From Chitinophagaceae bacterium PMP191F (GTDB taxonomy: Bacteria; Bacteroidota; Bacteroidia; Chitinophagales; Chitinophagaceae), in contig LGYU01000009.1 in NCBI GenBank assembly GCA_001302245.1, positions 186,001 to 250,000 of the forward strand: a DNA stretch of 64,000 nucleotides, written 5' to 3'. Below the pieces are notes generated by a model. It worked only from the letters and a program-made list of their open reading frames with translations. It had not been told where the DNA came from and did no database searches. Below, piece after piece: positions 11,066-26,174 of this stretch. A program made the translations under genes and the position numbers. The first letter of the stretch is position 1. Every line of letters starts with the position of its first letter.

Positions 11066-11893
11066 TTATTTCTCGTCCTGTTCGTCCATCTTCTTTAGAA
11101 GACCGTCCCGGAGTTCATCAAGGAATTTTGTACGGTTTATTTTTCGGGTTCGTAACTCCAAAAACGTTTGATAAAAATTCCCTAAGTCAATATTGAACGT
11201 ATTTTCAAAATATTGTGCTATTAATCTTATATCGGTATTGCCATTATCAAACACACCCTGACAATTCAGTGCGTAAATTAATTCTATCATAGCCGTTTTG
11301 CTTCCCGTCCAATTTAACTTTTCAGTGGCTACCGATTTATTGTCCTGGGTTTTGCTGTATAGTTGTTTTTCGACATAAACCTGTATCATGTCGTTAGCAA
11401 TTATCTTGGCAACCTTATAATCGTGTGAAGTGGAAAAGGACTGGTCAGACTGAAAATAGTAAGTATCCAACCATAGTTTTATATCGTGCCTGCCACGTAC
11501 AAAAAAACTTTCATCAAGAAAAGAATTATTGCTACGATAGTATTTATAGAAATCGAGATTGTTATCAAAAAATCTTTTTAGCTTTTTCAGTTCTTTGGTA
11601 AGATATTTTTTTATTGGCTTTGCTCCATAGGGTTTTCTTGCTTCAATCTTGTAAATGGTATTGTAGTAAATAAGTTTTGAAACAATGGTCGGTTTCTGAT
11701 ATTTGAAAAAACGGATTTCCTCATCTGTATTCTTAAATCCTCTTTTCAATATATACTCTTTTACTTCGGACAGGCATTTAAGAATAAGGTGTATCACAGT
11801 TTCTACCTGTTGTATAGAACAATCGGTTTCAATCTCTAACTCATTGATTGAAAATTCCAATTTATATAGCGTTTCATTATAGAATTTTTCCAT
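11066..11893 (-). CDS. rteC: RteC family element regulator (copy 1)
   Basis: A 275-residue RteC protein. In CTnDOT, RteC activates the excision operon in response to RteA/RteB, so this protein probably controls excision or transfer of this element. From about residue 48 to the end it is nearly identical to the second RteC of this window (shared KLKRFFDNNLDFYKYYRSNN and RTKFLDELRDGLLKKMDEQ), while the first 45 residues differ. RteA and RteB partners were not seen in the window. It is followed by the HD gene and preceded by metal cargo on the same strand. Confidence 0.9.
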   Translation of the reverse strand: MEKFYNETLYKLEFSINELEIETDCSIQQVETVIHLILKCLSEVKEYILKRGFKNTDEEIRFFKYQKPTIVSKLIYYNTIYKIEARKPYGAKPIKKYLTKELKKLKRFFDNNLDFYKYYRSNNSFLDESFFVRGRHDIKLWLDTYYFQSDQSFSTSHDYKVAKIIANDMIQVYVEKQLYSKTQDNKSVATEKLNWTGSKTAMIELIYALNCQGVFDNGNTDIRLIAQYFENTFNIDLGNFYQTFLELRTRKINRTKFLDELRDGLLKKMDEQDEK

Positions 11894-12010
11894 TTTATTA
11901 TTTTAAATGCCCCAGATATTGGTTGCTAATAGAAGAACCCAAATTGTTTTGCCGATGCTCTATTCTGTTAGCATTTTACGAGGCGTATTAATTAAAATTT
12001 CTATGTTTCT

Positions 12011-14509
12011 TTATTTCACTCGCTTCACCCATTTATACACTTCAAACCATAATACAGATACCGATGCAATGCCAATAGCCGTACCTAATTCGCCTGCATT
12101 TAATCCTGTTAAGTGAAAGAAATTGGCAAAAGGTGCAATATATAATATAGCGAACAGCAGAATAAAGGTTAAGCTGTTGACTACCACAAACAGCCTATTC
12201 CTGTTCTTAAAACTTTCAAACAGGCTGTAATGGAATGAGCGATTGGCCAGGCTCAATAAAATATTGGCAAAAATCAAGGTCGTAAAAACCATCGCTCTTG
12301 TTTTCTCTTCATTACCGCCGTTTTGCACGGTATATTGATAAGCGAACAATACACCACCTGTTATGATCAACCCCTGAGCAATGCTAACAGCCAACTCTTT
12401 CCAGTTCAGAAATGTATCCGTCATTTTTCGTGGCTTTTTCAACATGGTGTTACGCTCCATCGGTTCGTTTTCATATACAATGGAGCAGGTAGGCCCCATT
12501 ATCAATTCTAAAAAGATCACGTGGACAGGAGTGAATATCTGTGGGAATACCCAGCCCAGAAACAAAGGCAGAGAAACCGTAAGAATAATCGGTATATGAA
12601 TGGAAATAATATACTGAATAGCTTTTTTAATGTTCGCATAAATTCTTCGACCGGATGCGATACCGGTAATCAGCTTGTCTAAATCGTCATTGGTAATCAC
12701 CAATGCTGCAGCAGCTTTAGCTATTTCAGTTCCTTTGCTGCCCATTGCCACACCAATATGAGCAGCTTTCAGTGCCGGGCCGTCATTTACGCCATCGCCC
12801 AGCATGGCCACTACTTCACCTTGCTTTTTTAGTGCGTTTACCACAGCCAGCTTGGCATCAGGGAACATCCGGGTAAACAATACTTTATCTTCGGCTGCTT
12901 CCATAAGCTTAGCATCCGAATATTCCATAATATCTTTTCCCTCTACTGCATCGGTTGTGTTTAAAATTCCCGCCTGTGCTGCAATGCTTCTGGTGGTATC
13001 AGTATTATCACCCGTAATTACTTTTACTTTAATGCCAGCGTCATAAATATGGCGGAAGACTTCCTGAATATTTTGCTTTGGCGGATCATAGAAAACGACC
13101 AGCCCCAGGAAATCAAACCTGAAATCCTGTTGCTTTAAAGGAAAGTCATTCCCTTCAAAAGAGGTGCTGGCAACCCCTAAAACCCGGAAGCCCTGTTGTC
13201 CGAAATTTTTGATAAGCTCCCGTATTTTATTTTTTTCATTTTCCGAAAGTGTGGATACATTAAGAATGGCTTCCGGCGCACCTTTAGCAGCGATGATCCG
13301 TTGTTGTTCAGCATTTTCAAAAAGATGTGTCATCATTGGAGGTTTCCCTTCCAGTGGATACTCATGTATCATTTTAAATGCTTTCCGTTGGTCGTTGGAT
13401 TGTGTTTGCTCATATACTTTGTGCAAAGTCTTTTCCATCGGGTCAAAAGGGGCAGGCTCACTGCTCCACATGGCATAGTCAATCAGCGTAGAAAGTGCCA
13501 CATCGCTGAAATCTTTCTCATCTAAAATTTTATCCGACCGGTAGTCGTAAAGATGCTTTAGGTGCATCGTGTTTTCAGTAATGGTTCCGGTTTTATCAGT
13601 ACAGATCACCGTTGTGCTGCCTAATGTTTCCACAATGCTGCTGCGTTTGACAATGATACCGTCACGCATCAGCTTCCAGGCACCCAATGCCATAAAAGTG
13701 GTAAATGCTACGGGAATTTCTTCCGGCAGTACAGACATTGCCAGCGTAAGCCCATTGAGCAGGCTGTTAATCAGATCTTGAGTATGATAATAGCTAACGG
13801 CACATACCATCCCGAAAATAGCTATACCCACAATAGCCATAGCTTTTACAAAGCTGCGTATTTGAAGTTGCAAAGGCGAGGCTTCTTCTTTTATTCCCGA
13901 AAGGGAAACGCCGATTTTACCAAGGCGGGTTGCTGCGCCTATTTGTTCCACTTTAAATACAGCCAGTCCCGATACTGCTAATGTGCCACTATAAACCTTG
14001 TTGTCTTCGCTTTCCCTGCTTTTGAATACAGAAAGACTTTCGCCGGTCAGAGAGGCTTCATTAACGGAAAAGTCGTTGCTGTGCATAATCTCGCCATCGG
14101 CGTTAATCGTTTTTCCTTCTTCGGTAATGCAGAGATCGCCTACCGCAATTTCGTGGGTCGGAATTTCAATAACCTGTGCATTGCGGATAACTTTACTCAA
14201 TGGCTCGTTCAGTTTTTCCAATGCCTCCAGTGCTTTTTTGCTACGGGTATCCTGGTATAATGAAATGGCGGAAACCACAACGATTGCCAGCAACATAAAA
14301 AGGGCTTCACCATAATTGCCTACGATGAGGTAAATGGCTGAAATGGCAAAGAGCAGTATGAGCATTGGTTCTTTGAGTATATTCATCAGCAATTCCAGCA
14401 CCGTGCTTGTATGAACACCGTCTATTTTGTTGTAGCCGTATTGCCTTCTAGAAGCGGCTACTTCGCTATCGTTAAGACCTTTCAGATGGTCGGGTATATT
14501 ATATGACAT
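12011..14509 (-). CDS. Cation-translocating P-type ATPase
   Basis: An 832-residue P-type ATPase. Visible motifs: DKTGT phosphorylation site near residue 308 (VICTDKTGTITEN), PEEIP in membrane helix 4, TGDN and GDGVNDGPALKAAHIGVAM in the catalytic domain. There is no N-terminal cysteine metal-binding domain and the helix-4 motif is not CPC/CPH, so it is not a classic heavy-metal P1B pump; it resembles P2-type Ca2+/Mn2+ ATPases. The ATG at 14509 (MSYNIPDHLKG) is preferred over an upstream TTG. It is transcribed away from a small membrane gene across a shared intergenic region. Substrate is inferred to be a divalent cation. Confidence 0.92.
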   Translation of the reverse strand: MSYNIPDHLKGLNDSEVAASRRQYGYNKIDGVHTSTVLELLMNILKEPMLILLFAISAIYLIVGNYGEALFMLLAIVVVSAISLYQDTRSKKALEALEKLNEPLSKVIRNAQVIEIPTHEIAVGDLCITEEGKTINADGEIMHSNDFSVNEASLTGESLSVFKSRESEDNKVYSGTLAVSGLAVFKVEQIGAATRLGKIGVSLSGIKEEASPLQLQIRSFVKAMAIVGIAIFGMVCAVSYYHTQDLINSLLNGLTLAMSVLPEEIPVAFTTFMALGAWKLMRDGIIVKRSSIVETLGSTTVICTDKTGTITENTMHLKHLYDYRSDKILDEKDFSDVALSTLIDYAMWSSEPAPFDPMEKTLHKVYEQTQSNDQRKAFKMIHEYPLEGKPPMMTHLFENAEQQRIIAAKGAPEAILNVSTLSENEKNKIRELIKNFGQQGFRVLGVASTSFEGNDFPLKQQDFRFDFLGLVVFYDPPKQNIQEVFRHIYDAGIKVKVITGDNTDTTRSIAAQAGILNTTDAVEGKDIMEYSDAKLMEAAEDKVLFTRMFPDAKLAVVNALKKQGEVVAMLGDGVNDGPALKAAHIGVAMGSKGTEIAKAAAALVITNDDLDKLITGIASGRRIYANIKKAIQYIISIHIPIILTVSLPLFLGWVFPQIFTPVHVIFLELIMGPTCSIVYENEPMERNTMLKKPRKMTDTFLNWKELAVSIAQGLIITGGVLFAYQYTVQNGGNEEKTRAMVFTTLIFANILLSLANRSFHYSLFESFKNRNRLFVVVNSLTFILLFAILYIAPFANFFHLTGLNAGELGTAIGIASVSVLWFEVYKWVKRVK

Positions 14510-14549
14510 AAACAATTAGATATTAATCTTTAAAAATACATATGCTTTC

Positions 14550-14581
14550 TTTGTTCCTGTGTTTTGCTTTCAATAATTTTG
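14550..14581 (+). promoter_or_regulatory. Bacteroidota consensus promoter for small membrane gene
   Basis: TTTG at 14550-14553, a 20-base spacer and TAATTTTG at 14574-14581 match the Bacteroidota -33/-7 consensus exactly. The expected start of transcription is about 15 bases before the ATG of the 67-residue gene, which supports that gene being real. Confidence 0.75.
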
Positions 14582-14602
14582 TTATATATAAATTGATAAA
14601 AC

Positions 14603-14806
14603 ATGAGCTTCTTCAATAAAAAAACCACCTGGGCAAACAAAGAATTTATCCCATTTAAACTTTGCATTGCCAGTATTTATATCATTGCAGGCAGTTATTT
14701 TCACAGTGTCTTTGCAAACTATTATGTACCGCTTTTTATTCTGTTTGGCGTCACTGCCGTATGGACAGTGGTTTTGTGGCTAAAAAAAATGAAAAGCAAG
14801 AACTAA
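14603..14806 (+). CDS. Small two-helix membrane protein, unknown function
   Basis: A 67-residue protein with two hydrophobic segments (about residues 17-36 and 41-59) and a basic C-terminus (KKMKSKN). I do not recognise a family. It is preceded by a full consensus promoter and is the only plus-strand gene in the metal cargo block, divergent from the P-type ATPase. That placement suggests an accessory membrane peptide for metal cargo, but this is inference. Confidence 0.6.
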   Translation: MSFFNKKTTWANKEFIPFKLCIASIYIIAGSYFHSVFANYYVPLFILFGVTAVWTVVLWLKKMKSKN

Positions 14807-14856
14807 CGAAAGATTAAGCCCTGAAAAACGCTTCTTTTCCAAGGCTTGTAACTCTA

Positions 14857-15576
14857 TTATACTTTTACTCCAAAAAGATACCCCACCAGAGCGGTCAATA
14901 CCATTGCAATAGTTCCCCAAAGCGTAATCCGAACAACTGCTTTTGCTATTGCTGAACCACCGGTGCGTGCAGCAAATGCACCGAGAATACCCAGAAATAC
15001 AATGGAAAAGATGTAAAGAACATATTCCATATTCTTTACAGGAGAAAACAGTGTTATTGCTAAGGGTAAAATACCGCCTGCCGTAAACGCTGCGCCCGAT
15101 GCCAATGCCGCCTGAATGGGGTTAGCCTGTGTGATTTCATTGATGCCAAGCTCATCCCTAAGGTGTGCTTCAAGTGCATTGTGTTCCGTCAATTCTTTGG
15201 CAACAAGTTGAGCGGTTTCCTTTTTCAGTCCCCGTTTCTGGTATATTTCTGTTAGCCGTTGCAATTCGACTTCGGGCATTTCATCCAGTTCCTGCTGCTC
15301 TCTTTTTATATCCGCTTTCTCCAGATCGGTCTGCGAACTTACCGATACATATTCTCCGGCAGCCATTGACAATGCCCCGGCAACAAGACCTGCCAAAACC
15401 GCTAAAATAATTGGCTCTCTTGTACTGCTGGCTGTTGCTACGCCAATAGCGATACTGGCAACAGACAATATGCCGTCATTGGCACCCAATACCGCCGCAC
15501 GCAGCCAGTTGCTTTTGTGCATATAGTGATTGTCAAGATAATTATCCAGTGTTCCTGTTTGTTTACTATTTGCCAT
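14857..15576 (-). CDS. VIT1/CCC1-family iron/manganese transporter
   Basis: A 239-residue membrane protein of the VIT1/CCC1 family, which exports Fe2+ or Mn2+ from the cytosol by proton exchange. The N-terminal signature LGANDGILSVASIAIGVA and the GALSMAAGEYVSVSSQ segment are characteristic. A long charged cytosolic helix rich in Glu (DLEKADIKREQQELDEMPEVE) lies between helices 2 and 3, where the family binds metal. Start ATG at 15576 (MANSKQTG) is chosen; the upstream TTG extension would run into the preceding gene. Last gene of the metal/redox operon. Confidence 0.88.
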   Translation of the reverse strand: MANSKQTGTLDNYLDNHYMHKSNWLRAAVLGANDGILSVASIAIGVATASSTREPIILAVLAGLVAGALSMAAGEYVSVSSQTDLEKADIKREQQELDEMPEVELQRLTEIYQKRGLKKETAQLVAKELTEHNALEAHLRDELGINEITQANPIQAALASGAAFTAGGILPLAITLFSPVKNMEYVLYIFSIVFLGILGAFAARTGGSAIAKAVVRITLWGTIAMVLTALVGYLFGVKV

Positions 15577-15599
15577 TTGTTTTCCTTTTATTAAATGAT

Positions 15600-16061
15600 T
15601 TATTGAATTTCTTTTTTTACTGTATTCACCCACGCCTCTATCTCTTTTTTGTCTGCATCAGAAAGTTTTGCATTGCCGTGAATAAGCGTGTAAGAGTTTA
15701 ACGGCATTTCATCTCTGTTAATCGTTTCTACCACTTCCTCCAGTTTGTGTAGCTTCTTCTTTGCAGGATAGGTATTAAACTCATCAAAATTCAAATGCTT
15801 TTTACCTTCAGTAACATGACTGGCCAGCCACCATTTTACCGGCTGCACATTGTTGTACCAGGGATAAGTGGTGTTATTGGAATGACAGTCGTAACAGCTT
15901 GTTTTTAGCAATCCCTGTACTTTCGGAGGTACGCTATAATGCCTGGTAATTGCATTTTCAGAGGCTACAATACTGCTATTTTTTTCTGTTCCAAAGAACT
16001 GAATGATGATAAGCAGCAGCACTATGGCTGCTACTATCTTTTTTAAGATTGATTTTTTCAT
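15600..16061 (-). CDS. Membrane-anchored haem-binding (cytochrome c-like) protein
   Basis: A 153-residue protein with one N-terminal membrane anchor (IVAAIVLLLIIIQFF) and a single CxxCH haem attachment site at residues 56-60 (CYDCH). It matches the Haem_bd family common in Bacteroidota. It would sit in the periplasm and carry one c-type haem, so it could pass electrons in a redox system with the ApbE/thioredoxin genes of the same operon. Conserved downstream features include KWWLASHVTEGK and the segment YTLIHGNAKLSD. Confidence 0.85.
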   Translation of the reverse strand: MKKSILKKIVAAIVLLLIIIQFFGTEKNSSIVASENAITRHYSVPPKVQGLLKTSCYDCHSNNTTYPWYNNVQPVKWWLASHVTEGKKHLNFDEFNTYPAKKKLHKLEEVVETINRDEMPLNSYTLIHGNAKLSDADKKEIEAWVNTVKKEIQ

Positions 16062-16078
16062 TTTATTTTAATTATTTT

Positions 16079-17284
16079 TTATTTGAACCTGATGTTTAAC
16101 GAAATAATATCCGATGCCATTCCTACCGACTTGGTATAATGACCATATCGTAATTCCAGCATATTGATCTGTTGTATGCCCAAAAGCCCATTGGGCAGGT
16201 TGTAACGTATGCCTGCACCAAAGAAATTGCTATTGAATTTGGACAGGTCGTAATTGCTGGTATAAAACTCATCCGATACCCCATGTGCCTGATAAGGCGC
16301 AAAATATTTTGCCCCTGTTTGCGTATAAAAACGATAGAACGGACTGACTGAAACAAAAGGTGATAATTTGATCGGAGTTTCCAAACTGATCGTATGTGAT
16401 TTTATACCCCAACTGTCCGTGTAATAGCGGTAATAGGTACGGATGATAAATTGATCTCCCAGAAAATAATTGGCACGTAGCCCCAGTGGGATTTTAAAAC
16501 GCTTATCGGGCAGGGTTTCCTGATGTACGGTACCATCCGAAAAATATACCCTGTGAAAAGGCAGACTTAGATAGCCACTCTGCTGCACAACGTCCGTAAG
16601 CAGTTCCACCTGAAAGTTTGGATTGATAATCTGCGAATAGGCAAGTGAAAGTGCAAACGTGTTCCGCCCGCTGGTACCATATTGTTCATGTTCCCTTCCA
16701 CCAGTTCCCGGACTATAGTTTGGTCTTAATTCAATCGGCGCTATAAGTGTCACCTGATCCAAATAAGCCTGGAACTTGGCTGTAAATTCACCCATTTTAT
16801 TGGCTGTTTTCTGTGCAAAGCCAATATTGGCACCTAAAGACTGGTAGTCAAATTCCCCGGAATAGGAAACTCCACCCATCAGTGTGCTGCCTTTACTTTC
16901 ATTTTCTCTCGTCCAGCCAATCGAAGGATAAAACCTTGTATCGGCGTGAGATGCGGAAGAATTGGCTTTCAGGTCGATCCTATCGGAAGAAGCAGAGGTA
17001 TAATGATCTACACCTACATCCAGCCTGAATTTATTTTTCCTGTTCTTTCTGTCATATTTAACGAGTGTAACGTCTATGACATTGGAAATATCCGTCAACC
17101 TTTCAGAACCGATACCACCCGTCACTGCCGAGTTATTGCCATTCTGATGATAATAGCTGGATACCAGGTTAATTTCATCAACTTTTAATTTTCGGGATAT
17201 ATGGCTGGTATCAACAGGCGTAGTCTGCGCATGGGAATGCAATAACGCCATAAGAGCTGCTGCTGTTAAAAATATTCTTTTCAT
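16079..17284 (-). CDS. DUF3570 outer-membrane beta-barrel protein
   Basis: A 401-residue protein with a signal peptide (cleavage likely after ALLHSHA) and alternating beta-strand patterns rich in Tyr and aromatic residues throughout, fitting an outer-membrane barrel. It matches DUF3570 proteins, which typically sit next to DUF4266 and ApbE genes as here. The function of the family is not known to me. It is 18 bases downstream of the DUF4266 gene. The last residues (SLNIRFK) end in an aromatic residue followed by lysine. Confidence 0.85.
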   Translation of the reverse strand: MKRIFLTAAALMALLHSHAQTTPVDTSHISRKLKVDEINLVSSYYHQNGNNSAVTGGIGSERLTDISNVIDVTLVKYDRKNRKNKFRLDVGVDHYTSASSDRIDLKANSSASHADTRFYPSIGWTRENESKGSTLMGGVSYSGEFDYQSLGANIGFAQKTANKMGEFTAKFQAYLDQVTLIAPIELRPNYSPGTGGREHEQYGTSGRNTFALSLAYSQIINPNFQVELLTDVVQQSGYLSLPFHRVYFSDGTVHQETLPDKRFKIPLGLRANYFLGDQFIIRTYYRYYTDSWGIKSHTISLETPIKLSPFVSVSPFYRFYTQTGAKYFAPYQAHGVSDEFYTSNYDLSKFNSNFFGAGIRYNLPNGLLGIQQINMLELRYGHYTKSVGMASDIISLNIRFK

Positions 17285-17302
17285 TGTTTTTCTCTTTTTA
17301 GG

Positions 17303-17533
17303 TTAATTACAGCCACAGCCTCCACCAGATTTGCCTGCATTGGCACCGGATGAGCCTTCACGGTAGGATTGAAAATTGAGTTCGGTTTTTTCGATGGTGC
17401 GATTGCCGAGTACCATTTCGGCATCATTCAGCTTATTCTTTTGGTATTCTTTTACTGTTGTACAGGAAACCAAAGCGCAAACTGCCATAAAAGCAGCAGC
17501 TTTTAAAAATATTTTACTTGATAATTGTTTCAT
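17303..17533 (-). CDS. DUF4266 lipoprotein with C-terminal Cys-Gly-Cys tail
   Basis: A 76-residue lipoprotein. The lipobox is ALVSC (lipidated Cys24). The mature part ends in a Gly/Ser-rich stretch and the sequence GGGCGCN, with Cys73 and Cys75 close to the C-terminus. It fits DUF4266. The start overlaps the ApbE stop (ATGA), so it is translationally coupled to the flavinyltransferase gene. The tail could bind metal or be modified; this is inference. Gene order thioredoxin, ApbE, DUF4266, DUF3570 points to one functional module at the cell envelope. Confidence 0.88.
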   Translation of the reverse strand: MKQLSSKIFLKAAAFMAVCALVSCTTVKEYQKNKLNDAEMVLGNRTIEKTELNFQSYREGSSGANAGKSGGGCGCN

Positions 17534-18456
17534 TTTAAATTGATTTTTTTGGATGAATAAATGCGGTTGGCATCGTCAATGATGATACATTCAACCTGTT
17601 GGATCTGGTTAATAAGGTTTAGCGCTGCATCGATGCCCATGATGCTTACAGGCGTAGCCATTGCATCAGCTATTTCTGCATTCGGGCAGATAATGGTCAC
17701 ACTTTTGACCCCGGAAACGGGTATTCCTGTTTTGGGATTAATGGTGTGGGAATACCGTTTGCCTCCGATCATGACATATTTTTCGTAATTACCTGAAGTG
17801 GCTACCGCCGTATCCGTTATATTCAGGTACGAAAATGGCAATCTTGCATTATCGGGATTGGCAATGCCAATCGTCCAGGGTTTACCGTCTGCCTGGCTTC
17901 CCCAAACCGTAAGGTCACCCGAAGCATTGACAACACCGGATTGGACACCACGTTGCTGCAATAATCGTTTGCCCATCTCGGCAGCATAGCCTTTTCCAAT
18001 TCCCCCGAAACCGATACGCATACCTTTCTCTTTCAGGAAAACGGTTTGTTTTTCGGGGTCTAAAAGGATGTTCCTGTAATTGACCAGTTTCAGGTGTTCT
18101 TTAACAGATCCGGGATCAGGAAGCTCCTTCATTTCCTTGTCGAAGTTCCAGAGCCTTTTATCTATGCCACCGTAAGAAATATCAAAATAACCATCTGTAA
18201 TCTGGCTGATGCGGATACTCCGTTCAATCAGGTTAAACATTTCCGCATCCACTTTTACAGGCTGCACCCCCGCATTGCGGTTAACGAGGTTGGTTTGACT
18301 GTCTTCCTTATAAGTGGTGAGTAATTGCTCAATCCGTTGGATTTCGGCTATGGCGGCATCAATATGCTCCAGTGCCTGCCGCTCATCGGTATCCACAACG
18401 GTAATTTCAAAAGCATTGCCCATCAGCCTTTGGGGTTTGCGAAATTCCTGTAGCAT
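17530..18456 (-). CDS. apbE: ApbE-type FAD:protein FMN transferase
   Basis: A 308-residue ApbE protein, which attaches FMN from FAD to Thr/Ser of target redox proteins using Mg2+. Family motifs are visible: GGIGKGYAAEMGKRLL near residue 155, GVVNASGDLTVWG, and HTINPKTGIPVSG. The start at 18456 (MLQEFRKPQ) lies one base after the thioredoxin stop. Most ApbE proteins are exported, yet no signal peptide or lipobox is visible here, which is odd for an enzyme coupled to envelope proteins. No clear flavinylation target motif was found in neighbouring genes. Confidence 0.93.
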   Translation of the reverse strand: MLQEFRKPQRLMGNAFEITVVDTDERQALEHIDAAIAEIQRIEQLLTTYKEDSQTNLVNRNAGVQPVKVDAEMFNLIERSIRISQITDGYFDISYGGIDKRLWNFDKEMKELPDPGSVKEHLKLVNYRNILLDPEKQTVFLKEKGMRIGFGGIGKGYAAEMGKRLLQQRGVQSGVVNASGDLTVWGSQADGKPWTIGIANPDNARLPFSYLNITDTAVATSGNYEKYVMIGGKRYSHTINPKTGIPVSGVKSVTIICPNAEIADAMATPVSIMGIDAALNLINQIQQVECIIIDDANRIYSSKKINLK

Positions 18457-18457
18457 C

Positions 18458-18901
18458 TTAATGTTTTTTGTTGTAGAAATTCCGTATTTCACCTGTAAAA
18501 GCGTCCGCACTTTGGGCCGGCAATCCTTCCCAGGTCTTTAAGATTTTACCCTCTGCATCCAACAAAAGCGTATAAGGGAATATCCCGTTCGGATTGTACT
18601 GGTCTGCCAGTTCTGCATTTTCTTTTTTAACGGCCTGTGTCGGCTGTTTCTTTTTGCTTCTCGGGAAATCGGCATTGAGATATATCACAGCGTTATCCGA
18701 AATCAGTTTTTGAAATGCTTCGGTTTCTATAATATTCTTATGGAGCTTAATGCAGGGAACGCACCAGTCCGACCCGGAAAAATTGAGTACGATCAGCTCC
18801 TTTTTTTCAGCAGCTTCTTTTTTAGCCTGATCGAAACGTGATTGCGAAAAGGCTATGTTTGAAAATAACGCCAGTAGGATGGCTACACTTACATTTTTCA
18901 T
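18458..18901 (-). CDS. Periplasmic thioredoxin-family protein
   Basis: A 147-residue protein with a signal peptide (ILLALFSNIAFSQ) and a thioredoxin-like domain whose active site is WCVPC in SGSDWCVPCIKLH. It resembles the Thioredoxin_7 group. It would act in the periplasm as a thiol reductant or oxidase. Its stop is separated from the ApbE start by one base. It may maintain cysteines of the DUF4266 lipoprotein or the haem site of the c-type protein in the same operon; that is inference. Confidence 0.88.
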   Translation of the reverse strand: MKNVSVAILLALFSNIAFSQSRFDQAKKEAAEKKELIVLNFSGSDWCVPCIKLHKNIIETEAFQKLISDNAVIYLNADFPRSKKKQPTQAVKKENAELADQYNPNGIFPYTLLLDAEGKILKTWEGLPAQSADAFTGEIRNFYNKKH

Positions 18902-18943
18902 TTTATTAATTTTTAAGATTGTGATTTAATTTATCAATAGCAG

Positions 18944-20110
18944 CTATTCATCTTCTGCTGCATTTTTGAGTTTCATCAATAGCGTATAAGCGTTCTGTAC
19001 CACAATGTTTTTTCCTGCCAGCTCACCGCTGTTCAGTATCTGAACGAAACCGTTTTCCTGTGTGCCAGGTGTAACCGGCAGCATGGTGTATTTTTGCTTA
19101 CCGCTTACCGCAAACACATAGCTTTTCCCTTCAAAATCAACAATGCTTTCTTCGGGCAATGCCTGTGAAAAAGTGGATTGAAGTTCTATGACCGCATTCA
19201 TGTACATTCCGGGTAATAGTCCATTATCATACTGGTGAAAATGACAGTGCACATCAGCGGTTCCGTCCATTCCGATGTCCTTACTGATCAAAATAATTTC
19301 AGCAGGTATTTTTTTACCGGGGTCGTTATTGGTATAGGCAATTACCTGCTGACCGATTTTCAAATGGCTGATATCTTTCTCATATACCCTCAAATTCAAA
19401 TGAATATCATCGGGATTAATGAGTTCAAACAATACTTCTGAAGGGTTGACGTATTTACCAATGTTCACATTCACCTTGCTTACAAAACCATTGATGGTGC
19501 TGTAAATGCGGATACCCTTAGCTATCGTGGCTGTTGAAAGTTTATCAGGATTAATATTAATGAGTCGTAGTTGCTGCGCCAGTGCATTGAGCTGTATCTG
19601 CTGACCAGCCATTTCTGCCTGTGCCTGTTGCATTACTTTATCGCTCGCCGCCTGGTTTTCATTCAGATTTTTTTGGCGGTTGTAATCCAGTTGTGCAAAA
19701 TGCAGTTTTGATTTCGCCTGAAGGTAATCCTGCTGCAACCGGATGTATTGCGGGTCTTCCAGTTCAGCGATTACTTCGCCCTTTTTTACCTGCATTCCCG
19801 GTAATAGTTTGGTATTTTTCAGATAACCTCCCAGCGGCACACTTACCGAAACCAAACTTTGGGGTGGCACGTCTATCTTGCCATTGAGCTTTAATTGGGT
19901 GGCAATATTCCTGTCGGAAAGCTGTGTAGTGGTTACCGGTGCGTTTTTCAGTTGTGCATCGGTTAATATGACCACATTGTTTTCTCCTTTGACGGCTGGC
20001 TTCTCGGCATCCGCAGATTTGTTTTTGCATTGGGAAAATGCCAGGACAGCCAACAGTAAGACACATTTTAATGGGGCTGATTTTTTTATATGGATTGCTG
20101 ATAAAAGCAT
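18944..20110 (-). CDS. Metal-efflux periplasmic adaptor (CzcB/CusB-like)
   Basis: A 388-residue membrane-fusion lipoprotein linking the RND pump to the outer-membrane channel. The lipobox is LAFSQC. The barrel-sandwich halves (LKNTKLLPGMQVKKGEVIAE and IYSTINGFVSKVNVNIGKYV) flank a coiled-coil hairpin with AQAEMAGQQIQLNALAQQL. The ATG at 20110 follows the RND-TolC stop by two bases, which decides the start over an upstream ATG inside that gene. No N- or C-terminal Cys/His-rich metal-binding extension is present. Confidence 0.9.
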   Translation of the reverse strand: MLLSAIHIKKSAPLKCVLLLAVLAFSQCKNKSADAEKPAVKGENNVVILTDAQLKNAPVTTTQLSDRNIATQLKLNGKIDVPPQSLVSVSVPLGGYLKNTKLLPGMQVKKGEVIAELEDPQYIRLQQDYLQAKSKLHFAQLDYNRQKNLNENQAASDKVMQQAQAEMAGQQIQLNALAQQLRLININPDKLSTATIAKGIRIYSTINGFVSKVNVNIGKYVNPSEVLFELINPDDIHLNLRVYEKDISHLKIGQQVIAYTNNDPGKKIPAEIILISKDIGMDGTADVHCHFHQYDNGLLPGMYMNAVIELQSTFSQALPEESIVDFEGKSYVFAVSGKQKYTMLPVTPGTQENGFVQILNSGELAGKNIVVQNAYTLLMKLKNAAEDE

Positions 20111-20112
20111 AA

Positions 20113-23100
20113 TTATGGATTTAGATTGAGATAATTGATGGATATAATGGACTGGCAAAGCGTATTGACCGCATCGGCATAATTGCTCCGTATTGCAATA
20201 GCCTGGTTCATCAGCATTACCCAGTCCAGGTAATTGATTTCGCCACCCAGGAACTGCTTCTGCGCTGTAGCAACGATGGTAGCTGCATTTTTCAGCCCGG
20301 TGGTTTCAAAATACCTGACAATAGCTATATTGTTATCATAGGCGGAAAGCAGTTCCTCGTATTTACTCTTCAATGCGGCCGTTTCGGCTGCAAGCCGACC
20401 TTCTGCAATATTTTCAGCTATACGGGATGCTTTCACCCTGGCTTTTTGCGCCTGCGCAAAAACAGGAATGCCAATGCCAATCTGTACGGAATGGAACCGG
20501 TTAGCCGTGCCATAGGAATTATTGTCGGGACCTGTGCCTTTAAAACTGTTGTTGTTATAACCCAGCATCAGATCAGGCAATAGTTTTGCCCGTTCAGCTT
20601 TGGTCTGTGCTATCGCAATAGCTTGCTGTTGTTTTAATATTTGCAATAAAGGATGATCGTTGCCGGAATTAGAAGATAAAACAGGTATTTTACTGTCATC
20701 TGCCGGTTGCATAGGGGTATCTGTGTTCAACAGGAACCTCAAACGGATGCCCATTGTATTCAGCTCCTGCCTTACCTGCTGCAACTGTATGGCGATAGCT
20801 GCTTTCTGGCTTTCTGCAATTGTTTTTTCCAATATATTGCTTTCGCCATTTTGCAAGCGCAGTTTTGCCTTTTCATAAAATCCACTGTACAAACTATCTG
20901 CCCCAAGCAGTAATGCTTCTTTCTTTTCCCAATAAAGGAGGGTGAAAAATGTTTGGGTTACGGCTTTTTTCAACTCATATTCTTTCAGTGAAATATTCAG
21001 CAGGCTCTGCTTGTATTCTTCTTCAAGAACCCTGTTTTGTTTTTGGTAAACAGAAGGAAATGCAAAACTCTGCGACACGCCAAACCGGGTGTCATTATAC
21101 GCACTGTTGATCTGACCGAAATCAGCCGTAACCGCCATTTGAGGGATATTGGCACCCGATTTTACCAGGGCTTTACTATATTCCGAAACCAGTTTTTCAT
21201 TTTTTACCTGGAGGTTGTTCTTTATGGCAATATGGATCGCCTCATCTAAGCTAACCGGTGTCTGTGCGCTTACTGTTCCGGCAGATAGCAAGCCGATGAA
21301 CAGTATAACGACCGCTTTGTTTTTGATTTTGATGCCTTTTTCAAACAGGATATACAATAGCGGAAGCACAAACAAAGTAAGCAGCGTAGCAATCAGTAAT
21401 CCGCCGATTACAACTGTTGCCAGCGGACGCTGCACTTCGGCTCCTGCTCCGTTGCTCAAAGCCATCGGCAAAAAGCCCAGTGATGCAACGCTTGCGGTCA
21501 TCAGGATGGGACGTAACCTGATTTTAGTGCCATAAACCACGATGCGGGAAATGTTGGTCAAACCTGCGTTTTTAATGCGTTTGAACTCCGAAATAAGTAC
21601 AATCCCGTTCAGTACTGCCACACCAAACAGGGCAATAAACCCAACACCGGCACTAATGCTGAACGGCATACCACGGGCAGCCAGTAGCAATACACCACCG
21701 ATAATGGACAGAGGAATGGCTGTATAGATAAGCAGGCTCTCTTTAACAGACCTGAAAGCAAAGAAAAGCAGGATGAAAATCAGCACCAATGCCACCGGAA
21801 CAGCAATCATCAGCCGCTCTTTGGCCTGGTTCAGATTTTCAAAAGAACCTCCATAAGTAATGTGATACCCTACGGGCAATTTTACTTGTTGCGCTACTTT
21901 TTGCTGAAGTTCTTTCACGATACTCTGCACATCCCGGCCTTTGACATTGAAACCGACTATGATACGGCGCTGGGCATTTTCACGCTGTATCTGGTTAGGC
22001 CCTTCCTTGATCTGTACATCGGCCAGTTGCGAAAGTGGTATTTGGTTGCCCTGGGCGGTAGGTATCAGCAAACGTTTTACATCTTCCAGTCGCTTGCGGT
22101 CATTGGCATCCAGTCGAACCACCAGATCAAAACGTTTTTCACCTTCAAAAACCAGCCCGCTGCTTTGCCCGGCAAATGCCGTGTTTACTATATTGTTGAT
22201 GTCGGCAATGGACAAATGATACTGTGCAATAAGCGGCCGGTTGTATTGAATAATTACCTGCGGCATTCCTGTAACCGGTTCCACATAAAGGTTTTCCGCT
22301 CCTTGTACGGTATTCACCACTTTTCCCAACTGTGCTGCTGTAGCAGCCAGTGTATCCAGGTTCTCCCCATAAATCTTTAATACCACATCCTGCCTGGCAC
22401 CGGTCATTAGTTCATTAAAACGCATCTGCACCGGGTACTGAAAACCTGCGGTGATGCCCGGAACATCCTGTAGCGCCTTACTCATTTTTTCTGCCAGTTC
22501 GGGAAATGTCTTTGCGGAAGTCCATTCCTTTTTGTCTTTCAGGATCACCATCATATCACTGGCTTCCATTGGCATAGGGTCGGTAGGTACTTCACCGCTG
22601 CCAATCTTGGTAACCACTTTTATTACTTCCGGGAACTTTGTCTTTAAAAGGTGTGCGGCTTTCTGCGTATGCTCGATTGTTGTGTTCAAATTGCTGCCGG
22701 TAAGCACACGGGTATCTACGGCAAAATCACCCTCTTCCAGGGAGGGAATAAACTCGCCACCCAAACGGGAAAGAATAAAAACTGAAACAATGAAAAGTAC
22801 TGCAACCAATGAAAGGATAAGTTTGGGCAGCCGCAATGCCCGGAGTAACATCTTTTGATAAAATGCTTCAATGGCCGCCATCATCCGGTCGGAATAGTTC
22901 ACTTTTGTACTGCTTTTTCTTTTCAGTACCAGCGAGCTCATCATTGGAATATAGGTAAGTGATAGTAAAAATGCACCCAATAAGGCAAAGGCCACGGTTT
23001 GCGCCATCGGCTTGAACATCTTGCCCTCTATGCCCTGTAAGGAAAGAATAGGCAGATAAACAATAAGGATGATGATCTGCCCGAACACGGCGCTGTTCAT

Positions 23101-24444
23101 CATTTTACCGGCGGCAGTGGTAACGGTTCCGTTCATTTCTTCTTTGGAAATGCCACCTATCTGTCGGAAATGTTTATTATGTGCTATCTGGTGCATTACC
23201 GCTTCCACGATGATTACCGCGCCATCGATGATCAGGCCGAAATCCAGCGCACCGAGGCTCATCAGATTACCGCTTACGCCAAACAGGTTCATCATACAGA
23301 TGGCAAATAGCATAGCCAACGGAATAACCGATGCAACCAATAAACCCGCACGGATATTTCCAAGAAATATCACCAGCACAAACACAACAATGAGCGCACC
23401 CTCCATCAGGTTATGCTCAACGGTTCCGATAGCATTGTTGACCATCTTTGTGCGGTCAAGGAACGGTTCGATCACCACACCCTGGGGCAGTGTCTTTTGA
23501 ATTTGGGCGATGCGTTCTTTTACGTTTTTAATGACCTGGCTGCTGTTTTCGCCTTTCAGCATCATCACCACGGCACCGGCCACTTCGCCCTCGTCATTAT
23601 AGCACACAGCGCCGTAACGGGTGGCATAGCCCATTTTTACAGCAGCAACGTCACGAATAAAAAGTGGTGGCTGATCGGGTCTGTTTGTAATGGCTATGTT
23701 CTGAATATCTTCAATAGTGCCTATCAGCCCTTCACTACGGATATACAGGACGGTGGGGCCTTTTTCGATGTAAGCGCCTCCCGTATTCTGGTTGTTGGCT
23801 TCCAGTGAAGCAAACACATCTTTGATGCTGATGCCGTGGGCGTGTAATTTGTCGGCGTTTACGGCTATTTCATATTGCTTCAGCTTGCCGCCAAAACTGC
23901 TGACTTCGGCTACGCCTTTTACGCCCAATAACTGGCGGCGCACAATCCAGTCCTGAATGGTACGCAGTTCGGTGATGTCGTATTTTTTTTCAAAACCTTT
24001 TTTCGGACGTACCACATATTGATATATTTCTCCCAATCCCGTTGATATGGGGCCTAATGCCGGTGTACCGATGCCTGGGGGGATTTGGCTTTGCACCTGT
24101 TGCAGACGTTCCGCCACCTGCTGCCTTGCCCAATAAATATCAATACCATCTTCAAAAACAATGGTTACCAGCGAAAGCCCGAACCGGGAAAAGCTGCGGA
24201 TCTCCTTTAAGCCGGAAATATTGCTGTTTGCCTGTTCGATGGGAAAGGTTACCAGTCTTTCAATATCAGTGGCTCCGAAAGAAGGAGCAATGGTGATGAC
24301 CTGCACCTGGTTATTGGTAATATCCGGCACAGCATCAATAGGTAATCTGGTGGTTTGATAAGCACCTATGACTATCAGGGCGATTACCAATAGCCCTACA
24401 ATGAGTTTGTTCCTTACGGAAAACTCAATAATTCTATTTAGCAT
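20113..24444 (-). CDS. CzcA-type heavy-metal RND pump fused to a TolC-type channel
   Basis: A 1443-residue fusion. Residues 1 to about 1035 are an RND transporter of the heavy-metal family: IYWARQQVAERLQ is typical, and the helix-4 motif DFGLIIDGAVIIVE matches CzcA-type Co/Zn/Cd pumps rather than Cu/Ag pumps. After the last pump helix comes a hydrophobic stretch ending TVSAQ, like a signal peptide, then a TolC-family domain of about 390 residues (SLDEAIHIAIKNNLQVKNEK). Start ATG at 24444 (MLNRIIEFSVRNK) is chosen; upstream residues are not family-like. Such fusions are known in Bacteroidota. It is followed immediately by the adaptor gene, giving a full tripartite pump. Confidence 0.93.
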   Translation of the reverse strand: MLNRIIEFSVRNKLIVGLLVIALIVIGAYQTTRLPIDAVPDITNNQVQVITIAPSFGATDIERLVTFPIEQANSNISGLKEIRSFSRFGLSLVTIVFEDGIDIYWARQQVAERLQQVQSQIPPGIGTPALGPISTGLGEIYQYVVRPKKGFEKKYDITELRTIQDWIVRRQLLGVKGVAEVSSFGGKLKQYEIAVNADKLHAHGISIKDVFASLEANNQNTGGAYIEKGPTVLYIRSEGLIGTIEDIQNIAITNRPDQPPLFIRDVAAVKMGYATRYGAVCYNDEGEVAGAVVMMLKGENSSQVIKNVKERIAQIQKTLPQGVVIEPFLDRTKMVNNAIGTVEHNLMEGALIVVFVLVIFLGNIRAGLLVASVIPLAMLFAICMMNLFGVSGNLMSLGALDFGLIIDGAVIIVEAVMHQIAHNKHFRQIGGISKEEMNGTVTTAAGKMMNSAVFGQIIILIVYLPILSLQGIEGKMFKPMAQTVAFALLGAFLLSLTYIPMMSSLVLKRKSSTKVNYSDRMMAAIEAFYQKMLLRALRLPKLILSLVAVLFIVSVFILSRLGGEFIPSLEEGDFAVDTRVLTGSNLNTTIEHTQKAAHLLKTKFPEVIKVVTKIGSGEVPTDPMPMEASDMMVILKDKKEWTSAKTFPELAEKMSKALQDVPGITAGFQYPVQMRFNELMTGARQDVVLKIYGENLDTLAATAAQLGKVVNTVQGAENLYVEPVTGMPQVIIQYNRPLIAQYHLSIADINNIVNTAFAGQSSGLVFEGEKRFDLVVRLDANDRKRLEDVKRLLIPTAQGNQIPLSQLADVQIKEGPNQIQRENAQRRIIVGFNVKGRDVQSIVKELQQKVAQQVKLPVGYHITYGGSFENLNQAKERLMIAVPVALVLIFILLFFAFRSVKESLLIYTAIPLSIIGGVLLLAARGMPFSISAGVGFIALFGVAVLNGIVLISEFKRIKNAGLTNISRIVVYGTKIRLRPILMTASVASLGFLPMALSNGAGAEVQRPLATVVIGGLLIATLLTLFVLPLLYILFEKGIKIKNKAVVILFIGLLSAGTVSAQTPVSLDEAIHIAIKNNLQVKNEKLVSEYSKALVKSGANIPQMAVTADFGQINSAYNDTRFGVSQSFAFPSVYQKQNRVLEEEYKQSLLNISLKEYELKKAVTQTFFTLLYWEKKEALLLGADSLYSGFYEKAKLRLQNGESNILEKTIAESQKAAIAIQLQQVRQELNTMGIRLRFLLNTDTPMQPADDSKIPVLSSNSGNDHPLLQILKQQQAIAIAQTKAERAKLLPDLMLGYNNNSFKGTGPDNNSYGTANRFHSVQIGIGIPVFAQAQKARVKASRIAENIAEGRLAAETAALKSKYEELLSAYDNNIAIVRYFETTGLKNAATIVATAQKQFLGGEINYLDWVMLMNQAIAIRSNYADAVNTLCQSIISINYLNLNP

Positions 24445-24602
24445 AAATTTCTTCTGGAATTTGTTAACGATAATTTGGCTCACAGAAGAATACCTGCGCA
24501 ATGATTAGCCGCACATCGGAACAATAGTATGTAGCAAGATTATTTAGCCCCTTGCAGAAAGTATAGACAATCTAAAAGAGACAAAACATCAGTTACAGTT
24601 CA

Positions 24603-25346: not shown

Positions 25347-26174
25347 CTACTTTTCGTCCTGTTCATCCATTTTCTTTAAAAGCCCGTCCCGGAGTTCATC
25401 AAGAAATTTTGTCCGGTTTATTTTTCGGGTTCGCAATTCCAAAAACGTTTGATAGAAATTGCCTAATTCGATATTAAACGTATTCTCAAAATATTGCGCT
25501 ATCAGTCTTATATCGCTATTGCCGTTATCGAAAACGCCTTGACAATTCAGTGCATAAATTAGCTCTATCATGGCGGTTTTACTTCCCGTCCAATTCAGCT
25601 TTTGCGTGGCTACTGATTTACTGTCTTGGGTTTTGCTGTACAGTTGGTCTTCGATATACACCTGTATCAAGTCGTTGGCGATTATCTTGGCAACCTTATA
25701 GTCATGTGAAGTGGAAAAGGTTTGGTCAGATTGAAAGTAATAAGTGTCCAGCCATAACTTAATATCGTGCTTACCCCGCACAAAAAAATTTTCATCAAGA
25801 AAGGAATTATTGCTACGATAGTACTTATAGAAATCGAGGTTATTATCAAAGAACCTCTTTAATTTTTTGAGTTCTTTGTTGAGGTATTTTCTTATAGATT
25901 TCGTTCCATAGGGTTTTCTTGCCTCAATTTTATAGATGGCATTGTAATAAATGAGTTGAGCGATAATGGCTGGTTTCTGATATTTGAAAAAATGTATTTC
26001 TTCCTGCTCGTTTTCAAATCCAGTTTTCAATACATATTCTTTCAGTTCAGTAGTCTTGCTTAAAATGAGTTCAATTGCTTTCTCATAGGAAGCTAAGACA
26101 TTTCCCTGCTCGTATGCCAATTCTTTTATTTCTTCATCTAATTCATCTGATATTTTCTTAAAATATTCTGTCAT
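25347..26174 (-). CDS. rteC: RteC family element regulator (copy 2)
   Basis: A 275-residue RteC protein, same length as the first copy and nearly identical over the last 225 residues, but with a different first 45 residues (MTEYFKKISDELDEEIKELA versus MEKFYNETLYKLEFSINELE). RteC proteins activate excision genes in CTnDOT-type elements. The two copies flank the metal cargo in the same orientation. DNA similarity is clear but far from identical, so this is not a recent duplication; the metal block may have been carried in with its own RteC. Ends in its own terminator. Confidence 0.9.
   Translation of the reverse strand: MTEYFKKISDELDEEIKELAYEQGNVLASYEKAIELILSKTTELKEYVLKTGFENEQEEIHFFKYQKPAIIAQLIYYNAIYKIEARKPYGTKSIRKYLNKELKKLKRFFDNNLDFYKYYRSNNSFLDENFFVRGKHDIKLWLDTYYFQSDQTFSTSHDYKVAKIIANDLIQVYIEDQLYSKTQDSKSVATQKLNWTGSKTAMIELIYALNCQGVFDNGNSDIRLIAQYFENTFNIELGNFYQTFLELRTRKINRTKFLDELRDGLLKKMDEQDEK

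Follow-up and report, generated by a model that had tools for sequence, protein, structure and literature searches.

A module of five consecutive genes lies on the minus strand, between positions 18901 and 15600, of a 64,000-nucleotide stretch of the genome of Chitinophagaceae bacterium PMP191F (contig LGYU01000009.1, positions 186,001 to 250,000; this whole stretch is the window, and all coordinates follow its numbering). The genes encode a secreted thioredoxin-like protein, an ApbE flavin transferase, a DUF4266 lipoprotein, a DUF3570 protein and a c-type haem protein of the Haem_bd family. The sequence and the reading of the open reading frames place them at spacings of -4 to +18 bases: the ATG start of ApbE follows the thioredoxin stop by 1 nucleotide, the DUF4266 frame overlaps that of ApbE by 4 nucleotides, and gaps of 18 and 17 nucleotides separate DUF4266 from DUF3570 and DUF3570 from the haem protein gene. 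All five proteins exceed the cut-offs of their respective Pfam families (for Thioredoxin_7, PF13899, 40 bits against a cut-off of 27). An earlier description of this DNA made from its letters only (the sequence-only reading) had reported five genes with overlaps or tiny gaps, which the coordinates and Pfam matches bear out, and a 76-residue lipoprotein ending in GGGCGCN, for which the numbering Cys73 and Cys75 is correct. Its idea of an envelope redox module is supported; its view that the target of ApbE is open gives way to the neighbouring DUF3570 protein as probable target. On balance we favour reading this locus as a mobile version of the DUF3570/DUF4266/ApbE/thioredoxin flavinylation module, with a proposed electron route to the cell surface.

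The thioredoxin-like protein has an N-terminal signal sequence, read directly from the letters, and weakly resembles DsbH. In ApbE, alignment with the other copies of the genome identifies a conserved histidine within YSHTINPKTG. A VIT1-family transporter gene begins 23 bases beyond the haem protein gene.

Table 1. Features of the module and of the adjoining transporter gene, in window numbering
Feature	Position	Strand	Evidence
Secreted thioredoxin-like protein, 147 residues	18458..18901	-	Pfam Thioredoxin_2 and Thioredoxin_7, about 40 bits
Thioredoxin active site WCVPC (C47, C50)	18752-18766	-	
ApbE flavin transferase	17530..18456	-	Pfam ApbE (PF02424), 279 bits
DUF4266 lipoprotein, 76 residues, lipobox LVSC	17303..17533	-	Pfam DUF4266 (PF14086), 67 bits
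GGGCGCN tail of DUF4266 (Cys73 and Cys75)	17306..17326	-	Sequence
DUF3570, predicted 16-stranded outer-membrane barrel, probable flavinylation substrate	16079..17284	-	Pfam DUF3570 (PF12094), 115 bits; AlphaFold
First flavinylation motif of DUF3570, D93-H-Y-T-S-A-S99	16988..17008	-	Alignment
Second flavinylation motif of DUF3570, S109-S-A-S112	16949..16960	-	Alignment
Haem_bd c-type haem protein, accessory	15600..16061	-	Pfam Haem_bd, 166 bits
Haem motif CYDCH of the Haem_bd protein	15882-15896	-	
VIT1-family iron/manganese transporter, accessory, next gene downstream	14857..15576	-	Pfam VIT1, 225 bits

The combination of ApbE, DUF3570, a thioredoxin-like protein and DUF4266 was described by Méheust et al. 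in 2021, who also noted the CXC tail of DUF4266 and found VIT1 in 25 clusters (PMC8238504). In the same work the DUF3570 protein of Chlorobium luteolum (ABB24424.1) was flavinylated by its own ApbE at two [S/T]GA[S/T] motifs, and flavinylation was abolished only once the serines of both motifs had been changed (PMC8238504). The module, the CXC tail and DUF3570 as flavin target are already described there; what is added here is the predicted position of the flavins at the outer face and a transferase without export signal. In the literature searched, which excludes most subscription journals, we found neither of these two, nor the near-obligate co-occurrence of DUF4266 and DUF3570 reported below.

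The canonical flavinylation motif is D-x-x-[S/T]-G-A-[S/T]. The DUF3570 protein of the window is about 23% identical to its presumed Chlorobium-group relatives, and its two sites, DHYTSAS (S99) and NSSAS (S112), align with DSVTGAS and STSGAS of these relatives, the first also with DTVSGAS of Vibrio. S99 is kept in 64 of 65 DUF3570 proteins and position 112 is S or T in 60 of the 65. The middle G of the published motif is S at both sites of the window (TSAS and SSAS). In several relatives the first site is of the serine type and the second of the glycine type, so that S and G may be interchangeable at this position. A search of the whole genome, which is 99.99% complete, gave no match to FMN_bind (PF04205). 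The genome contains three DUF3570, three DUF4266 and four ApbE genes, three of the latter in modules and one alone. Because a member of the family is flavinylated by its cognate ApbE, both serines are kept and FMN_bind is absent, the target of ApbE is very probably the neighbouring DUF3570 protein, most likely at S99 and S112. The sequence-only reading had seen no domain for attachment of flavin mononucleotide (FMN) nearby, yet this neighbour carries both aligned acceptor serines. The same reading had also raised a flavinylated target at another locus as a possible reason for the ApbE gene. This candidate was rejected: there is no FMN_bind in the genome (DUF2271 was not searched), and the two other DUF3570 copies adjoin an ApbE of their own. 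Five related loci (L050, L051, L072, L078 and L082) consist of thioredoxin, DUF4266 and DUF3570, with no ApbE in the stretch examined; they keep the flavin acceptor serines, the second site of L050 being diverged.

The AlphaFold2 model of the DUF3570 protein, calculated from a 65-sequence alignment from which the Vibrio plasmid sequence was left out, is a 16-stranded barrel (mean per-residue confidence, pLDDT, 88.7; predicted TM score, pTM, 0.82). A second model, of a presumed Chlorobium-group DUF3570 protein and based on a partly overlapping alignment, also has 16 strands (pLDDT 83.0), and here too both motifs lie within loop 2 or at its margin. All leading structural matches of the window model, from Foldseek and VIA, are outer-membrane barrels, and models and sequence together describe an even-stranded antiparallel barrel preceded by an N-terminal signal sequence. 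Outer-membrane barrels generally have both termini in the periplasm. With the termini placed there, the long connections (14, 22, 22, 23 and 27 residues) lie outside and the short turns inside. In the model S99 closes strand 3 and S112 precedes strand 4, which puts both flavin sites in the second of the outer loops. The outer halves of strands and the outer loops hold 36 of the 40 most conserved DUF3570 columns, and the inner half holds 4 (Fisher p = 2e-5). DUF3570 is accordingly predicted to be an outer-membrane barrel with both flavin sites on extracellular loop 2.

The ApbE protein of the window has only ten residues ahead of its core; its N-terminus (MLQEFRKPQRLMGNAFEITVV) runs straight into the core with no signal peptide or lipobox, a feature that the sequence-only reading did not mention. 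A hydrophobic export segment is lacking in 93 of 110 module ApbE proteins and present in 17, as judged by a hydrophobicity scan (not SignalP) with a bimodal outcome, the 17 loci scoring at least 2.0 and the rest at most 1.4. On the ApbE tree the trait changes 3 times, against 17.8 times for shuffled labels, and the window protein, represented by the identical L004, falls in a clade of 84 rows (support 99/97) none of which has a signal. The module ApbE proteins of the presumed Chlorobium group and of Vibrio have none either. Absence of a signal is, from these sequences, a deep, clade-wide trait, and it hints that DUF3570 is flavinylated before export. Signal-less ApbE goes undiscussed in the survey of Méheust et al. 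(PMC8238504), perhaps because that survey was filtered for signal-bearing genes. A cytosolic ApbE is known from Klebsiella (reviewed in PMC12052999); like that of the window it has no signal peptide, and it flavinylates in the cytosol. The substrate of the Klebsiella enzyme, a fumarate reductase, is soluble and stays in the cytosol (PMC12052999), whereas the target of the module would be exported.

The Cys-Gly-Cys tail of the lipoprotein is conserved. Each of the 146 relatives examined, which represent 100 distinct sequences, closes with CxC and one or two further residues, and in 142 of them the mature C-terminal part contains two cysteines and no more; this conservation, which the sequence-only reading had proposed to check for Cys73 and Cys75, is far beyond chance. 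Bacilliredoxins use CGC as a redox motif (PMC8301015). No convincing relatives were found of DUF4266 in PHROGs, nor of the DUF4266 or DUF3570 sequences in the Protein Data Bank. Among 395 genomes of the phylum Bacteroidota, a sample to which the comparison adds, from outside, one Vibrio plasmid locus, DUF4266 occurs in 113 and DUF3570 in 118. All 113 are shared, so that DUF4266 accompanies DUF3570 in 113 of the 118 DUF3570 genomes, and the flavin barrel is therefore a near-obligate partner of the tail.

The module sits in a conjugative element with two RteC genes, a coupling protein, a relaxase and a TraG ATPase. Upstream, on the same strand, are genes for an HlyD/CusB-type adaptor and for an RND pump with an outer-membrane efflux part fused to it, and downstream of the module one for a cation P-type ATPase. 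The pump and the efflux protein, the latter at the C-terminus, share a single frame of 1462 residues (20113-24501, minus strand). The 12,228 bases from 11306 to 23533, measured as far as the compared loci extended, match Pedobacter nutrimenti DSM 27372 and the metagenome-assembled genome Bacteroidetes bacterium 43-16 at 100% identity; identity of this degree across genera means that the cargo was transferred very recently. The two RteC genes bracket the metal cargo (11066-11893 and 25347-26174, both on the minus strand, 14,281 bases apart), and their products are 79% identical and do not differ at all over a C-terminal stretch. Duplication of rteC, or recombination at it, may have brought the cargo in. 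The metal setting claimed by the sequence-only reading is thus borne out, the module lying inside the cargo of a conjugative element. Of 115 related modules, 44 have a VIT1 gene no more than about 6 kb away, which points to iron or manganese; a Haem_bd gene is near 20 and P-type ATPases are near 25 of the 115 loci. Downstream of DUF3570, 21 related loci carry on the same strand a gene for a PAP2-like membrane phosphatase, the family being judged by eye.

In comparison to the DsbD-type system (PMC8238504), the window shares the four families in one operon, the CXC tail and the VIT1 neighbour. It has no DsbD (PF02683) in its cluster, and so matches the 316 clusters of Méheust et al. without DsbD rather than the set defined by it; the four-gene set itself occurs with and without DsbD (PMC8238504). 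Presumed Chlorobium-group genomes and Vibrio carry one run of thioredoxin, DUF4266, DUF3570, ApbE and DsbD, whereas the order in the window is thioredoxin, ApbE, DUF4266 and DUF3570. Further differences from the DsbD-type system are the signal-less ApbE, the TSAS and SSAS motifs instead of [S/T]GAS, the extra Haem_bd gene and the location in a conjugative element. Relative to the DUF3570 protein of C. luteolum, the acceptor positions of the window align with those of the presumed Chlorobium-group relatives, with a change of G to S inside the motif.

These observations could be joined as follows. ApbE would attach FMN to DUF3570, by homology to the experimentally tested relative most likely at S99 and S112. 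As the module ApbE has no export signal, this would happen in the cytosol, on the unfolded precursor, which would then be exported through Sec; the SecYEG channel can widen to about 22 Å (PMC5963308). A DsbD-type protein, whose gene lies elsewhere in the genome, would recharge the periplasmic thioredoxin. The thioredoxin would then reduce the Cys-Gly-Cys tail of DUF4266 in the periplasm, and this flexible, glycine-rich dithiol arm may hand electrons to the flavins of the barrel. The flavins would in turn reduce an acceptor at the cell surface, for which Fe(III) or another metal is plausible because VIT1 neighbours the module. We put forward only tentatively the full scheme, in which DUF3570 is an outer-membrane conduit with covalent flavins at its extracellular mouth, loaded in the cytosol by a signal-less ApbE, reduced by DUF4266 and spread partly on mobile metal-resistance cargo. 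In conduits of the MtrCAB type, too, electrons reach the surface by way of an outer-membrane barrel and redox cofactors. The module differs from them in having no multihaem cytochrome and, in its place, the proposed covalent flavin and dithiol arm, and the comparison is a functional one only.

Several points weigh against this scheme. Known VIT1 relatives export iron from the cytosol, which does not fit iron uptake in a simple way. Loop 2 is modelled with low confidence (pLDDT below 50 at residues 107-110), so that the flavins may face either the outside or the lumen, and the orientation in the membrane depends on loop lengths and the rule for the termini. In this genome there is no DsbD near the module, the single full DsbD match being on contig C25. 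The direction of the electrons, their acceptor and their route are inferred only. Flavinylation has been shown only for the G form of the motif (PMC8238504), while the window has S, and in another protein a change of the conserved G to A cut flavinylation to about half (PMC12052999). The place where ApbE acts is also drawn into question by a second module of the same genome, in which thioredoxin and ApbE are fused in one frame, followed by DUF4266 and DUF3570 (L160, 6871-8430; contig C45, about 300.9-302.4 kb). The fusion ties both proteins functionally, and since its thioredoxin part has a signal peptide it argues that ApbE is periplasmic in at least one copy.

ApbE might therefore be exported after all, by readthrough or frameshift together with the thioredoxin or by another route, and flavinylate DUF3570 in the periplasm. 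Besides the natural fusion, this would agree with the frames that overlap or adjoin at the thioredoxin-ApbE junction in most loci and with the exported ApbE of the marine-type Flavobacteriaceae relatives. Against it, a programmed frameshift or readthrough was looked for and rejected, as across about 70 junctions there is neither a conserved frame relation nor a slippery site, and a stop stands between the frames in several loci (L006, L041 and L053), and ordinary ATG or GTG starts are at hand; we regard export of the module ApbE as rather unlikely. That electrons run the other way, the barrel flavins taking them from outside (e.g. from Fe(II) or thiols) with the thioredoxin as acceptor, is conceivable since flavins and dithiols are reversible and the direction is reversible in principle for such systems (PMC8238504), but complete clusters include DsbD, which delivers electrons outward, and such a reverse flow seems quite improbable.

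The role of the tail leaves two other explanations. As a metal ligand it would be a sensing or buffering arm, at the surface or in the periplasm, which the redox proteins merely keep reduced; its two invariant cysteines, its flexibility and the metal pumps and VIT1 nearby would suit this function. Yet 142 of the 146 relatives have no third cysteine beside the pair, and DUF4266 is tied almost obligately to the flavinylated barrel (113 of 113 genomes), not to VIT1 (44 of 115 loci) or the P-type ATPases (25 of 115), which makes a primary role in metal binding decidedly unlikely. Alternatively ApbE or a partner could place flavin or another modification on DUF4266 itself; modification of the tail was an option in the sequence-only reading. 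The DUF4266 tail contains EG(A/S)SGAN, a sequence similar to the ApbE motif D-x-x-[S/T]-G-A-[S/T], but the acceptor position is neither S nor T and none of the 146 relatives contains [S/T]GA[S/T]. Flavin on DUF4266 was rejected on this ground, and modification of the lipoprotein in general appears highly improbable.

The module is common, being present in 113 of the 395 sampled genomes of the phylum, and is functionally unproven. The usual picture of ApbE is one of an exported enzyme with exported targets and does not include flavinylation ahead of export. If the ApbE of the module acts in the cytosol, covalent flavinylation can precede Sec export, and if the flavins lie at the outer face of the barrel, the module would be a candidate for a haem-free electron route to the cell surface.

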